Positions 22,490-28,692 are shown, counted from the stretch's first letter. The stretch is 38,378 bases of DNA from Clostridia bacterium (GCA_022798895.1 JAAWNJ010000009.1:1-38378), one strand, 5' to 3'. Notes: a model not told the origin generated them from the sequence alone. Made by a program: numbers and translations.

Positions 22490-23443
22490 ATGAAAATCAA
22501 GAAAACCGTAACAGTTATTTTACTAATGATAATGACGCTATTACAATTTAGTTTTGTAAGTGCGAATACGACACGTACTATGGATGTTACATTAAAATCA
22601 GCAAATGAAGCTGTAGATTTAAGTCAACTAACACCAGGAGCAACTTTTGAATTAGTAGTGCATATGGATAACTTCCAAAATATTGAAAAAGGAATACGTT
22701 ATATGCAAGCACAATTAGACTATGACAAAACTATTTTAGAATATGCAGGAATTATAGCACAAAATGGATGGGAATTAAAAGATGATGCTTTTAACCAAGC
22801 AAATGGAAAATTCGTTGTAGATAGTAATTCACCAGTTACAACAGCAGGAGATGCCTTCAAAATAGCTTTTAGAGTAAAAGCAAGTGTAGAAGAAGAGGTA
22901 TCAACTACAATTAAATTAAAAGGAATTGAAGCTAGTGGTGGTGATGGTCTTATTTTATCAAATGATGCAACAATAGACATTAATGTAGAAATTCCAGAAG
23001 AGCCAGATTTACCGGAATCAATTACTTCTACAAAATATGAAATTGCAAATGGAATGATTGCTAAAATAATTCCAGGAACAACTGTAAAAGATTTTATGAA
23101 AAATGTAACTACAGAAAATGTAGACAATGATGCTATTATATTTATAGACCAAGCAGGAAACACTTTAAATGAAAATGATGTGATTGCAACAGGTATGACA
23201 ATAAAAGTAGGAAAAACTTTAGAGTTTACTGCATCTGTACTTGGAGATGTTGATGGTGATGGACAAATCACAGTAAATGACTTAGCTAAAGTAAAATTAC
23301 ACTATATTGCAGATACTTCATTAACAGGTGCTTACTTAAAAGCAGCCGATGTTGATGGTCAAATGGAAGATAATCAACCAGTTGGTGTAAATGATATAGC
23401 AAGAATTAAATTAGTATTAATTAATTTATTTGAAATAAAATAA
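22490..23443 (+). CDS. Secreted adaptor scaffoldin: cohesin plus dockerin
   Basis: A signal peptide (residues 1-25, ending SFVSA) is followed by a cohesin domain at about 28-167 (TPGATFELVVHMDNFQNIEKG, QLDYDKTILEYAG, FKIAFRVKA). A small beta domain at about 180-250 (YEIANGMIAKIIPGTTVKDF ... ATGMTIKV) is of a type often seen before dockerins. Last is a type I-like dockerin at 252-317 with a calcium loop GDVDGDGQITVNDL and a second, altered loop ADVDGQMEDNQPVGVND. Carrying both binding partners lets it bridge a dockerin-bearing enzyme to another cohesin, such as the next gene's. It is 43 nt upstream of the anchor gene in the same unit. The cohesin-dockerin pairing specificity is inferred. Confidence 0.88.
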   Translation: MKIKKTVTVILLMIMTLLQFSFVSANTTRTMDVTLKSANEAVDLSQLTPGATFELVVHMDNFQNIEKGIRYMQAQLDYDKTILEYAGIIAQNGWELKDDAFNQANGKFVVDSNSPVTTAGDAFKIAFRVKASVEEEVSTTIKLKGIEASGGDGLILSNDATIDINVEIPEEPDLPESITSTKYEIANGMIAKIIPGTTVKDFMKNVTTENVDNDAIIFIDQAGNTLNENDVIATGMTIKVGKTLEFTASVLGDVDGDGQITVNDLAKVKLHYIADTSLTGAYLKAADVDGQMEDNQPVGVNDIARIKLVLINLFEIK

Positions 23444-23486
23444 GAAATGTAGTACAATAAGATAAAAAGTTAAAAGGAGAAGTACA

Positions 23487-24179
23487 ATGAAAAAAGTATT
23501 AAGTTTAGTATTATTATTTTTAATGATGATGAGTATTATGGGAACTGTAAATGCAGCATTTACTTGTAAAGTTAGTATGCAAATGGAGAAAACAGAATTC
23601 AAGAAGGGTGACGAATTTACAGTAGATATTAATATTTCTGATATTCAATCTGAAAGAGGAGTTATTTCTTTAGGAGCTACTTTAGAATATGATAAAGATA
23701 GCTTAACATTAGTAAAAATGGAAGGACAAAATGGGTGGGAAAGTCCATCAGTAGGTTCTTCTTATAATGAAGCTAATGGAAAAATTGCTATTACTAGAAA
23801 TGGTCTTGGAAAAAATAATGAAACTATATTTAAAATTACTTTTAAAGTAAAAGAAGGGGCTAAGAAGAATCTTCTTGTAACATTAAAGAATATTTCATTA
23901 GCAGATGGAACTTCTCCATTAAGTGTGGAAAAGGTATATAAAAATATTACGATACAAGAAGGAACAAATAATCCAGTTCCAAATCCAACACCAGATGATA
24001 ATGATAATACATTACCAGTTATTCCTAACACGAATAACACAGTAACTAATGATACTACCCCAGATAAAAAATTACCACAAACAGGAGTAAGTAATATCAT
24101 TTTAGTAGTTGGAATTGTAGCAACACTAACTGTTGCAGTAATATGTTTTGTGAAAATGCGTGATTTAAATAGAAAATAA
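23487..24179 (+). CDS. Cell-wall anchored cohesin protein (LPQTG)
   Basis: A signal peptide (1-23, ending TVNA) precedes one cohesin domain at about 25-155 (FKKGDEFTVDINISDIQSERG, ATLEYDKDSLTLVKMEG, TIFKITFKVKEG). An Asn/Pro/Thr-rich wall-spanning linker runs about 157-192. Then comes the sortase signal LPQTG (196-200), a hydrophobic helix and a basic tail (KMRDLNRK). Sortase would attach it covalently to peptidoglycan, displaying a single cohesin on the surface. AAAGGAGA precedes the ATG. Gene order places it directly behind the adaptor scaffoldin and before the dockerin cargo, consistent with a three-part surface assembly. No sortase gene lies in the window. The product has 230 aa. Confidence 0.9.
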   Translation: MKKVLSLVLLFLMMMSIMGTVNAAFTCKVSMQMEKTEFKKGDEFTVDINISDIQSERGVISLGATLEYDKDSLTLVKMEGQNGWESPSVGSSYNEANGKIAITRNGLGKNNETIFKITFKVKEGAKKNLLVTLKNISLADGTSPLSVEKVYKNITIQEGTNNPVPNPTPDDNDNTLPVIPNTNNTVTNDTTPDKKLPQTGVSNIILVVGIVATLTVAVICFVKMRDLNRK

Positions 24180-24184
24180 ATTTA

Positions 24185-24220
24185 GAAAAAATGGATAGTT
24201 AGGGAGCTATCCATTTTTTT
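24185..24220 (+). terminator. Terminator after the cohesin anchor gene
   Basis: AAAATGGATAG and CTATCCATTTT form an 11-bp stem with a 9-nt loop, running into a T tract. It separates the cohesin operon from the cargo gene. Confidence 0.9.
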
Positions 24221-24277
24221 GTGTTTGAAATCTTATAGATAATATTTCGAGGAAATGATAAAATTTTATGGAAAATG

Positions 24278-24306
24278 TTTACATAAAATAGAAAAAGTGG
24301 TATAAT
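24278..24306 (+). promoter_or_regulatory. Promoter of the 1445-aa dockerin protein
   Basis: TTTACA, a 17-bp spacer and a perfect TATAAT lie about 49 bp upstream of the start codon. The cargo gene therefore has its own transcription start. Confidence 0.8.
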
Positions 24307-24354
24307 AGTATTATATAGGTGAAAAAATAAAAAAGGAAAAGAAAGGGATTATTT

Positions 24355-27300
24355 ATGTTAAGAAAAAATGTAGAAAACGAAAAAAGTCCAATCAAGTTTT
24401 TGGCAAAAACATTGATATGCTTCTTCGTATTTTTTATGTTATTTTTTATAATTCAAGGAAATGGAACTTTAGCAACTACAGCTAAAATTACTGAAGATCC
24501 AAATAAAGGAGAATACTTACGTTTATCAGACGAACTATCAGAAGATAGTATCCCATATCGTAAGGAATCTCATGCAGGATGGGGAACTATTAAAGTAAAT
24601 CAAGATCTTAATGGAAATAAGCTAGCAATAAAAATTGAGAATGCATTTTATCAATTTGATTATGGTATTTTAGCACATGCATCATCAGAAGTATATTATG
24701 ACGTTAGTGAATATAGCGAAAAATATCCATATTTAACATTATATGTAGGTATGAACCAAACTTCAAGTTCAGGTAATGGTGTTAAAGTATATATTTATAC
24801 ATCTGATAAAGATCAATTTTATCCAAGTGGTGCACAAAACTGGACACTAAAAAACACTGAAACAGCAGATAGGGTAGTTATGCCAGGACAAAATGCAGTA
24901 TTTGAAAAAATAGATATTAGAGGAGCAAAATATATAAGACTTCAAGCATATGATAATGGAAGTAATGGAAATGATCATGTTGCATATGTAGAGCCAATGC
25001 TTATTACAGAAAACTATAAAGAGGATGCAGGTAGTGATATTAACATCAAAACAGTAGCAGAATATGATGAAATATTAAAAAGCAAAGAATTAGCTGAGAT
25101 TACCTCAGGAGAATATGAATTAACATTATTACAAAGAGAATTAGTAAATAAAGTAGGAGAATATGCTTTAAAAAGATATTTGAAAGAAAGTGATGATAAT
25201 CAAGAAACACTTACATGGTTAATGAATGATGTAGACACATTACGTCTTTATATATCAGGAGGAGAACCAAATGGAGCAAGTTATTTTAATTCTTTAACAC
25301 AACTTACTAGACTATTGAAAGCATATAAAAGTGACTTTGATGATAAAACTTCAATATCAGATGCAGGTATCAAACTTTTAGAGAAAAAAGGTTTGAATTG
25401 GGATACAACTAAGGGAAGTTTATATAAAAGAATGGCAATAACACTTTCATTAACACACTCTGCAAGAGTAAATTTATGGATGCAAGCTTCAGAACACAAT
25501 TTATCAGATGCAGTAGATCGTTACAAAATTTATAAAGATTTATATAATAATGGACAATTCAAAGCTACTGATGCAGTCAATATAACACCATGGTTTGAAA
25601 CCTTTAGTATTGAAGAAATGAGATGGGTTTTAGGTACAAATATTGATGATGAAGAAATTGTATGGTTAAATGAATATACTCAATCAAAAATAGATAAAAA
25701 TCCAGGAAGTGCATGGGGATTATTAACTCCACACTCTTATATGGCTTATGTATGGCCTAACTATTCAAATCCAGTTTATTATGATGAGGCAAATAAAGAC
25801 TATTTTAATGAATTATTTGCAGTAGAAAAGAAGAATGCAGATGGAACAGTTACAAAAAAGGGTTTATTTGATTATATACCTTATAGAAATGGTACACCAT
25901 ATACTTACAAATTATGGATGAACTTTAGAAATAAATTTGGTACTGGTGCAGTTTGTGGTGGTATATCAAAATCAGGACATTGTATCCGCGGGGTGCATGC
26001 AATACCATCAGCAGTTATTGGTCAACCAGGGCACGCAGCAATTCTTTACTATACCCAAAATACAGAAGGAAAAGGATATTGGGGAATTGATAATGACGTA
26101 TCTGGATGGAACTACTCAGAAAAAGGTGAAAGAATGCCTTTAGGATGGGGAAATGATAGAACTTATGTAAGGGGTTACAATGTACCATATGTTATATTAG
26201 CCCAAGAAGCATTAAATGATTATGAAAATTTGGAAAAAGCAGAAAAACTTGTAAAATTGGCAGATGTTTATAAAGATGACAAAGCAAAACAAGAACAAAT
26301 TTACAGAGAAGCAATTAAAGTTCAATCTATTAACTTAGATGCATGGGCAGGACTTGCTAAATTATATGTAAATGATGAAACTAAAACAGAGGAAGATTAT
26401 TACAACTTAGAAAAGGAAATGATGGAAGCTTTAAAATATTTCCCATTCCCAATGTATAATTTATCAAACTATATTAAAACAAAAATAACAAGTGTTGAAT
26501 ATTCTTTCAAATTTACAGTATTACAAGCAAAAATATTAAATGAAGCAAAAGATTATAAAGGTTCAGCAGTATTACAACCAAATTTAACAAGAGGATTTGC
26601 AGCACATTTATTAGGTCAAATAGATACTAGTTTAGCAAGTTTCTCATTTGATGGAGAAGATGCAGGAAAAATTGTATTATCAAGTCGTTTTGATGGAAAT
26701 GGTGTTCGTTGGGACTACAGTTTAGATGGAAAACAGACTTGGAATGAAGTTGCATTTGATGCACAAGAAGAACACAAGTTGCAATTAACAACAAAAGAAT
26801 TAAATGATATTACAGCTGAAAATGATATTTATGTTCATATTGTTGGTGCAAATTATAGTGAGGAAAATTTATACAAAATTGATATTTTTGAATCAGCAGG
26901 TTTACCAAGTACTTTATATGCAAATGATTTAGAAAATAAATTAATTGCATCAGTACCTAGTATGCAATGGAAATATAGAGAGGAAGATGACTGGACTTTC
27001 TATAGTGATGAAGAACCAGATTTAACAGGCAATAAAACAGTTATTGTTAGAATGGGAAGAACGGGAACATATTTGGAAAGTAAAACAAGTACAACTTATG
27101 AATTTACAACAAACATTGAGCAAAATGCTAGAAAATATATTCCAATTGAGCATTTATCTATTCATGGTGTTTCAACAGAAGCAACCTCAAATGGAGGCGC
27201 AGCAGTAAATGGTATTGATGGAAATATGAACACAAGATATCACTCAGCATGGAATGGTAGCGATACACAAAGATATATTATTGTAAAGATAGATAGACCA

Positions 27301-28692
27301 GTTTATCTTTCAGCAGTAGAGTATGTTCCAGCAGCTGGTGGAAATGGTAAAATTGTAGATGGAACTATTTGGGGAAGTATGGATGGCGAAAACTGGGAAA
27401 TGTTAACTAGCCAAAAGAACTTAACATACAATCCTTCAAATGTTGCTACAAATGAGCAAGCTAAAGCTAATACAAAACCTTTTGAAATAGAAAGTTTAAG
27501 AAAAGTACAATATGTTAAGATTGTAGCAGATAGAACAAATGGAAATTGGTTTGCTGCGAGAATGTTTAACTTCTATGAAAGTACAGAAGTATCAGCTATG
27601 TTCTCATTTGATGGTGCTAATGCAGGAAAAATTATATTAGCAGATGAATATCAAAATGTAAATTGGCAATATTGTATTGATGGAGCTAACTGGAAAAATG
27701 GAAATGGAGCAAGTTATCAATTATCAAGAGAAGAGTTAGAACAAGTTAATGAAAATGATAATATCAAGATTCGTTTTGATGGAAATCAAGCTGTGCATAC
27801 TATTAACATTCAAAAGGGAAGTGCCATAGAACAAAATGTTTATGTAAATGATTGGGAAAATAGATTAATAGGAATAGCTAACATTGATAGATTAGAATGG
27901 AAATTAGCAAATAGTGAAGAGTGGACATCTTACCAAGAACAAGAACCAATCGTAAGAGGTGAGAATACACTTCTTATTAGAACAAAGGCAACTGGTATTT
28001 ATGCAGCAAGTGATGTTACAGAGTATGAATTTACAGAAGATGCTGATACAGAAACAGCAAAATATATACCAATTAAACATTTATCTATCCATGGATATTC
28101 AAGCCAATCAAAAGACAGTAAAAGACCATTTTATGCACCAAATGCAATTGATGGAAATAGAAATACATTATGGCATACAGATTTTGCAGTATCTATTGAA
28201 GGACAAAGAGCTTATATTACTATCAAATTAGATAGTTCAAAATATATTTCTGCTATGGAGTTTGTTCAAAAGAAATATAAAGTGGATGATCCATGCCTTA
28301 TTCAAAATATGATTGTATCTGTAAGCAGTGATGGGGAAAATTGGATAGAGATTGGTAGAAAAGAAAATTGTGAGCAAGATGAAGAGTTTAAGAGAATTGA
28401 CTTTGCAGAAAGAATGGAAGCTCAATATGTTAAACTAGAAATGGAAACTTATGATATGTTTGCATCACTTGCCATGGTAAACCTATATGAAGATACAACT
28501 AAGATTGAAAAGGTAAAAGGTGACATTGATGGTGATGGAAGATTAACTGTTAATGATATTGCATTATTAAAATTACATTTAATCGATATAGAACTTCTAG
28601 AAGGTGAACAATTAGAAGTAGCAGATATAGACGGAGACGGAAGAATTTCTATTAATGATATGGCTCAAATGAAATTAAAATTACTGGAGTAA
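24355..28692 (+). CDS. Giant secreted dockerin protein: NPCBM, transglutaminase-like domain, TPR-like, two F5/8C modules
   Basis: 1445 aa with a signal segment (about 17-42). An NPCBM-like sugar-binding domain covers about 50-222 (YGILAHASSEVYYDVSEYSEKYPYL). A large helical region leads to a papain/transglutaminase-like core. Its candidate triad is C534 (GTGAVCGGISK), H560 (IGQPGHAAILYY) and D579 (GYWGIDNDV). A TPR-like helical stretch follows at about 625-750. Then come two copies of a roughly 320-residue unit (starting near 756 and 1078), each a beta-rich FSFDGxxAGKI module followed by an F5/8 type C discoidin-like domain (YIPIxHLSIHG). The C-terminal dockerin (1389-1445) has two intact calcium loops, GDIDGDGRLTVNDI and ADIDGDGRISINDM. 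No glycosidase or HExxH motif was seen. It may be a protease, amidase or transglutaminase acting on glycoproteins or wall material; the substrate is unknown. Confidence 0.85.
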   Translation: MLRKNVENEKSPIKFLAKTLICFFVFFMLFFIIQGNGTLATTAKITEDPNKGEYLRLSDELSEDSIPYRKESHAGWGTIKVNQDLNGNKLAIKIENAFYQFDYGILAHASSEVYYDVSEYSEKYPYLTLYVGMNQTSSSGNGVKVYIYTSDKDQFYPSGAQNWTLKNTETADRVVMPGQNAVFEKIDIRGAKYIRLQAYDNGSNGNDHVAYVEPMLITENYKEDAGSDINIKTVAEYDEILKSKELAEITSGEYELTLLQRELVNKVGEYALKRYLKESDDNQETLTWLMNDVDTLRLYISGGEPNGASYFNSLTQLTRLLKAYKSDFDDKTSISDAGIKLLEKKGLNWDTTKGSLYKRMAITLSLTHSARVNLWMQASEHNLSDAVDRYKIYKDLYNNGQFKATDAVNITPWFETFSIEEMRWVLGTNIDDEEIVWLNEYTQSKIDKNPGSAWGLLTPHSYMAYVWPNYSNPVYYDEANKDYFNELFAVEKKNADGTVTKKGLFDYIPYRNGTPYTYKLWMNFRNKFGTGAVCGGISKSGHCIRGVHAIPSAVIGQPGHAAILYYTQNTEGKGYWGIDNDVSGWNYSEKGERMPLGWGNDRTYVRGYNVPYVILAQEALNDYENLEKAEKLVKLADVYKDDKAKQEQIYREAIKVQSINLDAWAGLAKLYVNDETKTEEDYYNLEKEMMEALKYFPFPMYNLSNYIKTKITSVEYSFKFTVLQAKILNEAKDYKGSAVLQPNLTRGFAAHLLGQIDTSLASFSFDGEDAGKIVLSSRFDGNGVRWDYSLDGKQTWNEVAFDAQEEHKLQLTTKELNDITAENDIYVHIVGANYSEENLYKIDIFESAGLPSTLYANDLENKLIASVPSMQWKYREEDDWTFYSDEEPDLTGNKTVIVRMGRTGTYLESKTSTTYEFTTNIEQNARKYIPIEHLSIHGVSTEATSNGGAAVNGIDGNMNTRYHSAWNGSDTQRYIIVKIDRPVYLSAVEYVPAAGGNGKIVDGTIWGSMDGENWEMLTSQKNLTYNPSNVATNEQAKANTKPFEIESLRKVQYVKIVADRTNGNWFAARMFNFYESTEVSAMFSFDGANAGKIILADEYQNVNWQYCIDGANWKNGNGASYQLSREELEQVNENDNIKIRFDGNQAVHTINIQKGSAIEQNVYVNDWENRLIGIANIDRLEWKLANSEEWTSYQEQEPIVRGENTLLIRTKATGIYAASDVTEYEFTEDADTETAKYIPIKHLSIHGYSSQSKDSKRPFYAPNAIDGNRNTLWHTDFAVSIEGQRAYITIKLDSSKYISAMEFVQKKYKVDDPCLIQNMIVSVSSDGENWIEIGRKENCEQDEEFKRIDFAERMEAQYVKLEMETYDMFASLAMVNLYEDTTKIEKVKGDIDGDGRLTVNDIALLKLHLIDIELLEGEQLEVADIDGDGRISINDMAQMKLKLLE

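Follow-up and report, generated by a model that had tools for sequence, protein, structure and literature searches.

A cohesin-dockerin locus of an uncultured gut Clostridia bacterium as a likely wall-display station for putative host-protein-cleaving enzymes

Introduction

Cohesin-dockerin assemblies have been studied chiefly as fibre-degrading machines. The window analysed here, a stretch of 38,378 nucleotides, forms one contig of the draft genome of a Clostridia bacterium (1.93 Mb, 97.7% complete, contamination 3.2%). Its region 22490-28692 contains three genes, encoding a cohesin-X-dockerin adaptor, a single-cohesin anchor with an LPQTG signal and a dockerin-ended cargo protein of 1445 amino acids. 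An earlier note on this DNA had proposed that the three products form a serial, three-step chain, in which the cargo docks on the cohesin of the adaptor and the adaptor, through its own dockerin, on the cohesin at the wall. Which cohesin is likely to receive the cargo, what the adaptor might then be for, and what kind of protein is displayed are the questions that this locus raises.

Organization of the locus

The coordinates and reading frames that the earlier note assigned to the three genes proved correct. All are on the plus strand, with the adaptor gene at 22490..23443, the wall-anchor gene at 23487..24179 and the cargo gene at 24355..28692. The same arrangement is kept at 95-97% identity in three further genomes of the genus and is therefore not due to chance; this three-gene form is seen in only four genomes, which are near-identical to one another.

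The adaptor gene is separated from the anchor gene by 43 bp. Between the anchor and cargo genes, an intrinsic-terminator-like hairpin is present at 24185..24220 (plus strand), in which a 16-bp stem runs into a T run (-17.2 kcal/mol, z=-5.4). It was read straight from the sequence, a pattern scan having overlooked it because the stem absorbs the T run, and it is also present between the corresponding genes of three relatives (L163-L165). Upstream of the cargo gene lies a promoter-like element, TTTACA-17-TATAAT (24278..24306, plus strand; 11/12 match), with a TG ahead of the -10 box, which is identical across the four genomes. Presence of a terminator and a promoter between the second and third genes, both conserved, indicates that the locus probably comprises two transcription units, the adaptor and anchor being co-transcribed and the cargo standing apart.

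The wall anchor and the adaptor

The second gene encodes a protein of 230 amino acids with a single cohesin (23577..23915, plus strand; Pfam Cohesin E=3.6e-15), assigned to class I by the class concordance described below. Towards its C-terminus an LPQTG sorting motif can be read in the sequence (24072..24086, plus strand), followed by a hydrophobic stretch and a basic tail. These are the features of a ScaE-type wall anchor, and they agree with the earlier reading of this gene as a cohesin with a sorting signal. A search of the genome, which the earlier note had suggested, gave 10 cohesin, 14 dockerin and 12 sortase matches, so that sortases and further dockerin proteins are both present. The motif and the presence of sortases suggest that a sortase would fix the single-cohesin protein to the wall. 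About a dozen anchors from related loci have LPXAG (LPKAG, LPRAG, LPQAG or LPYAG) where LPXTG is expected, which suggests a sortase of altered specificity. On another contig of the same genome (C106; L073:6292-7917), a cohesin protein with a YPQTG signal is directly followed by a sortase gene.

The first gene encodes a protein of 317 amino acids which, according to Pfam and the predicted structure, consists of a signal peptide, a cohesin, an X-type module and a dockerin. The cohesin (22631..22948, plus strand, residues 48-153; Pfam Cohesin E=2.2e-8) is designated 'G-type' from its fold match and group identities. It is followed by an X-type beta module (23021..23230, plus strand), whose strands lie within residues 178-247 in alignment A3 and in the model, and by a class I dockerin (23240..23419, plus strand; VND...KLHYI / VND...KLVLI). 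The Dockerin_1 match to the latter (residues 251-290, E=1.2e-4) scores 22.6 bits, just below the Pfam cut-off of 22.9, because four extra residues interrupt the second loop (DVDGQMEDNQPVGVND). An AlphaFold2 model of residues 27-317 (pLDDT 87.4) resembles PDB structures of cohesins and of Coh-X-Doc (best match 3kcp, E=5e-10), with a TM-score of 0.83 to the C. perfringens cohesin 2vo8. Both modules earlier claimed for this protein are thus borne out by Pfam and by fold, and the objection that the proposed cohesin region might have another fold does not hold for the adaptor. With one cohesin, one dockerin and no catalytic module, the protein has the composition of a ScaC-like adaptor scaffoldin. 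Cohesins of the 'G-type' also occur in enzyme-cohesin-dockerin proteins and in core-cohesin-dockerin proteins of 2400-2800 amino acids.

The cargo protein

The third gene encodes a secreted protein of 1445 amino acids ending in a class I dockerin (28516..28686, plus strand, residues 1388-1444; Pfam Dockerin_1 E=3.8e-8) with two canonical calcium loops (DIDGDGRLTVND and DIDGDGRISIND), as had been noticed earlier. Additional to that description are three modules, an NPCBM carbohydrate-binding module (24562..25002, residues 70-216; Pfam E=2.4e-15) and two F5/8 type C modules, located at 27175..27561 (whole-protein family match, E=8e-24) and 28141..28437 (NedA-like; Pfam), all on the plus strand.

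An unannotated conserved core (25000..26200, plus strand) is made up of a helical lobe, a Cys/His/Asp lobe and TPR-like helices, as seen in an alignment of 51 sequences (A2) and in a model with pLDDT 87 and pTM 0.88. Three plus-strand codons stand out, those for Cys534 (25954..25956), His560 (26032..26034) and Asp581 (26095..26097), the residues being unchanged in 51/51 aligned cores. Cys534, which opens a helix in the model, is a candidate nucleophile; His560, immediately ahead of a strand, is a candidate catalytic histidine; and Asp581, which comes after the next strand, is a candidate third residue, replaced by Ser in C80-type paralogues. The order Cys-His-Asp is that known from papain- and transglutaminase-type enzymes.

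Apart from its TPR tail, the core gave no convincing match in Pfam, NCBIfam or PDB sequence profiles, and Foldseek with the whole core model returned only TPR-like matches (E>0.06). The remark that the cargo is no recognisable glycosidase is upheld. The core has no statistically supported match to any known enzyme family. A search of the phage collection gave no match to the core either. Identification of the core as a transglutaminase was considered and dropped, since none of the Pfam, NCBIfam, PDB and Foldseek searches supports it and hhalign aligned only the Cys stretch with the Transglut_core set (E=0.26).

Lack of an enzyme match in these searches, together with the many binding modules of the cargo, would suit an adhesin in which Cys and His are structural. 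However, both residues are invariant not only in the 51 sequences but also down to 23% identity, and their placement, the Cys at a helix start and the His and Asp beside strands, is that of papain- or transglutaminase-type enzymes. We consider an adhesin unlikely and regard the cargo as a putative cysteine hydrolase equipped with NPCBM and F5/8C glycan-binding modules. Its gene company and modules suggest that it might cleave host glycoproteins.

In about 85,000 species genomes scanned, 352 relatives of the core were detected; the 80 retained come from MAGs titled Clostridia, Clostridium, Bacilli, Tenericutes and similar. The core is present in 39 of the 145 genomes of the taxonomic family, and represents a widespread unnamed family of gut genomes whose activity is open to direct assay. 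A remote relative, WP_103301357 (809 amino acids), is encoded on the Enterococcus gallinarum plasmid pEG001 (L293:2702-5131) near a class A sortase gene. It is 23% identical to the cargo core and retains VCG..SK..GQPGH and the TPR-like tail, but carries two Mucin_bdg modules, and no dockerin was detected in it. Similar matches occur on E. faecalis plasmids, and five of the six plasmids are typed as conjugative.

Class matching between cargo dockerins and anchor cohesins

Cargo-family dockerins fall into four classes, defined by the motifs [NT]DLA..KLH and close variants (class I), ATDLLL.KRH (class II), [FL]QDILQ.NKHR (class III) and PTDLADAIQ (class IV). Among 46 non-redundant pairs of a cargo-family dockerin and an adjacent anchor cohesin, the four dockerin classes match four anchor-cohesin classes without exception (46/46, 43 through the fixed patterns and three, of class II, on inspection). 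Dockerin and cohesin distances are correlated with r=0.934 (partial correlation 0.922 when the catalytic core distance is held constant), and dockerin and core distances with 0.39. None of 5000 permutations, counts which leave relatedness in, reached the observed dockerin-cohesin correlation. Correlations within class I are left out of the argument as confounded, because there the core distances are correlated as well (r=0.86). Class has changed at least nine times on the tree built from the cores of the 46 pairs. The pairing of cargo and adjacent anchor (46/46, r=0.93) consists of class statistics from sequences, and would bear on the binding of client dockerins.

Most of the 46 loci contain a cargo and an anchor only, the adaptor being absent, and the nearest outside relatives of the window cargo have a class II dockerin and a class II anchor, again without adaptor. 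In the window, both dockerins, that of the adaptor and that of the cargo, belong to class I, as does the anchor cohesin. Since classes match at 46 loci nearly always without an adaptor, the cargo most likely docks on the anchor without an intermediary; once secreted, the protein would fit the class I dockerin at its C-terminus to the class I cohesin on the wall. We think it likely that the locus is a wall-display station of this kind, serving surface enzymes for host proteins or glycoproteins and not fibre. Its probable job would be to keep enzymes that cleave proteins or glycoproteins on the bacterial surface in the gut.

The main caveat is that the dockerin end of the cargo gene adjoins the anchor gene at most loci (the anchor lies downstream in 39/46 pairs and upstream in 7/46), so that joint transfer by recombination of adjacent DNA could explain part of the concordance. 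Taken to its extreme, the matching would reflect nothing but joint inheritance of neighbouring DNA, and the modules would be mere surface repeats that do not bind each other. This extreme reading is highly improbable. Cohesin-dockerin binding has long been established for these folds, and classes match also at the seven loci with the anchor upstream, although all of these are of class I and few are independent. Moreover, one genome (L133) has pairs of two classes, II and III, some 10 kb from each other and both internally matched, and at L228 the class switch of the anchors is shared by the adaptor dockerin but not by the adaptor's own cohesin. These three observations meet the objection of joint transfer only in part.

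The M26 adaptor

The same genome encodes another adaptor, on contig C32 (L075:3063-14720), where a cohesin-dockerin protein adjoins an M26 IgA1-protease-like protein of 3561 amino acids, whose dockerin is N-terminal and which has an HExxH motif. Giants of the M26 type, again with the dockerin at the N-terminus, adjoin a cohesin-dockerin adaptor at L075, L148, L162, L177, L189 and L284, and at L228/L280 the two are separated by one anchor gene; M26 identity was checked with Pfam for L075 and L280 and assigned at the other loci by shared dockerin and position. At L228/L280 the adaptor dockerin is of class IV, the same as that of the local anchors and cargo. The usual type is kept by the M26 N-terminal dockerin and by the adaptor cohesin there, which shares 50% identity with other M26 adaptors and 27% with class IV anchors. 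Such a pattern would be expected of an adaptor that holds the M26 dockerin in its cohesin and is itself attached to the anchor through its dockerin. A chain of cargo, adaptor and anchor is thus well supported for the M26 giant by this natural swap in a relative, and the ligand of the M26 adaptor cohesin would belong to a class separate from that of the adaptor's own dockerin.

Role of the adaptor in the window

The swap at L228/L280 gives the serial topology a precedent and raises the question of whether the window cargo is held in the same way. Counted by class, the genome's five class I dockerins outnumber its four class I anchors by one, which leaves one dockerin for a further socket, and arrays such as L277, where a cargo with a dockerin lies beside a cargo with cohesin and dockerin, have no anchor in the cluster. 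Against such a chain, the dockerin of the window cargo falls in the anchor class, and docking in its relatives involves no adaptor; the adaptor and anchor are apparently transcribed together, the cargo from a promoter of its own; and the adaptor cohesin, different in type from that of the M26 adaptors, is unlike the class I anchor cohesins (about 32% identity). The three-step chain is possible for the window cargo but, in our judgement, rather doubtful. The components and the surface anchoring described in the earlier note stand, whereas passage of the cargo through the adaptor as an obligatory step is unsupported, given same-class dockerins and 46 loci with a matching anchor, usually without an adaptor.

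Direct docking of the cargo on the anchor leaves the adaptor cohesin to be accounted for. Being of the same class, the adaptor dockerin would use this anchor or its class I paralogues at other sites of the genome, and the cohesin of the adaptor, which differs, would then be on offer as an extension socket to one more dockerin protein. That the cohesin is an open socket for a protein encoded elsewhere, with the cargo itself on the anchor, is compatible with the wall-display station and quite conceivable. Enzyme-borne cohesins of the adaptor type are more diverse than anchor cohesins (mean identity 0.40 versus 0.59), as would be expected for varied ligands, and the M26 adaptor illustrates that a ligand can belong to a separate dockerin class. 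However, neither gene neighbours nor class counts pointed decisively to a partner of the window adaptor cohesin, and none stood out among the genome's 14 dockerin matches.

Modes of attachment among relatives

Among non-redundant cores, 45 have a dockerin with an adjacent anchor cohesin, 16 a dockerin without adjacent anchor, seven a cohesin and a dockerin, and six an LPXTG-like signal; another 21 end differently, in most cases with a membrane helix and a basic tail, and 13 are cut by contig or locus ends. Mode of attachment has changed at least ten times on the core tree. Because the cargo of relatives ends in LPXTG or a membrane helix, the dockerin and its anchor are, judged from these sequences, a replacement for a built-in anchor, that is, a detachable wall anchor. 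In some giants (L174, L176, L180, L182, L185, L188 and L273-L277), cargo core, cohesin and dockerin are united in one chain; some of these genes stand in tandem arrays of up to three, and their products could daisy-chain.

Comparison with known systems

All 10 cohesins of the genome are single in their own open frames, and no multi-cohesin scaffoldin was found either here or in the 30 genomes of the genus searched, cohesins being encoded by 29 of them. In a Pfam scan, no glycoside hydrolase domain was present in the proteins behind all 14 dockerin matches. Neither feature by which a cellulosome is recognized, a multi-cohesin scaffoldin and dockerin-bearing glycoside hydrolases, was thus found in this genome, and the same is true of the multi-cohesin scaffoldins and dockerin mucin glycosidases that define a mucinolysome (PMC12997984). 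Other dockerin cargo includes M26, M60 and M6 proteins, in which the HExxH motif is retained, and Transglut_core proteins. A second copy of the cargo family (1608 amino acids, dockerin-bearing) adjoins its own cohesin gene.

In R. flavefaciens, the anchor ScaE and the adaptor ScaC are accompanied by the X-dockerin clients ScaB, CttA and RflaF_05439 (PMC2930009, PMC3573020). That system shares with the present one a single-cohesin LPXTG anchor, X-dockerin dyads, an adaptor of cohesin and dockerin, and dockerin-bearing transglutaminase-like and peptidase proteins (PMC2930009, PMC3573020). However, its anchor works for a multi-cohesin scaffoldin with a large repertoire for fibre degradation, and neither a multi-cohesin protein nor a dockerin glycosidase was found here. 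In contrast to R. flavefaciens, each cargo gene here tends to bring its own matched anchor gene.

The Limousia mucinolysome (PMC12997984, 2026) is likewise a gut cohesin-dockerin system for host glycoproteins, with an LPxTG anchor (cSca5) and some dockerin peptidases. It differs in having multi-cohesin scaffoldins and about 21 dockerin glycosidases, neither of which was found in this genome, and the portions of its description that were covered mention no such core family or M26 cargo. The cohesin/dockerin glycosidases of Clostridium perfringens (X82; GH84, GH33, GH31), as described in PMC12997984, resemble the present set in their single cohesins and scaffoldin-free, pairwise assembly, but there the cohesin rides on the glycosidases and here on a wall anchor or adaptor. 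In the open-licence literature, we found no paper on a scaffoldin-free, peptidase-type cohesin-dockerin set and nothing relevant on a dockerin-borne M26 or IgA1 protease.

Taken more widely, and as a tentative proposal only, uncultured gut Clostridia might possess a dedicated surface protease display, in which matched pairs of dockerin enzyme and wall cohesin take the place of scaffoldins. Its members would be a cysteine-hydrolase family not described before and, held via a socket adaptor, a giant M26 IgA1-protease-like enzyme. The system would act on O-glycosylated host targets (mucin, IgA), and would have spread its classes among paralogues by joint swaps. Here a plug and a socket would replace the built-in wall anchor, each anchor serving a single enzyme; the enzymes concerned are putatively ones that cleave host proteins. 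Dozens of matched pairs, produced by natural switches of class, are available for studying change and insulation of cohesin-dockerin specificity, and L228 adds one three-body swap usable for the same question.

Two other kinds of dockerin locus were observed in the course of this analysis. A recurrent pair (L077:5693-9423, L152:3055-7144, L285:5490-9610) joins a dockerin protein of about 750 amino acids, of class SxDLLxxQRHI and with SH3_3 and Ig-like modules where scanned, to a surface cohesin-type protein of 350-450 amino acids. At L279:1596-16108, six dockerin genes follow one another in succession, their dockerins belonging to yet another class (NARDAKLVLQYFNG).
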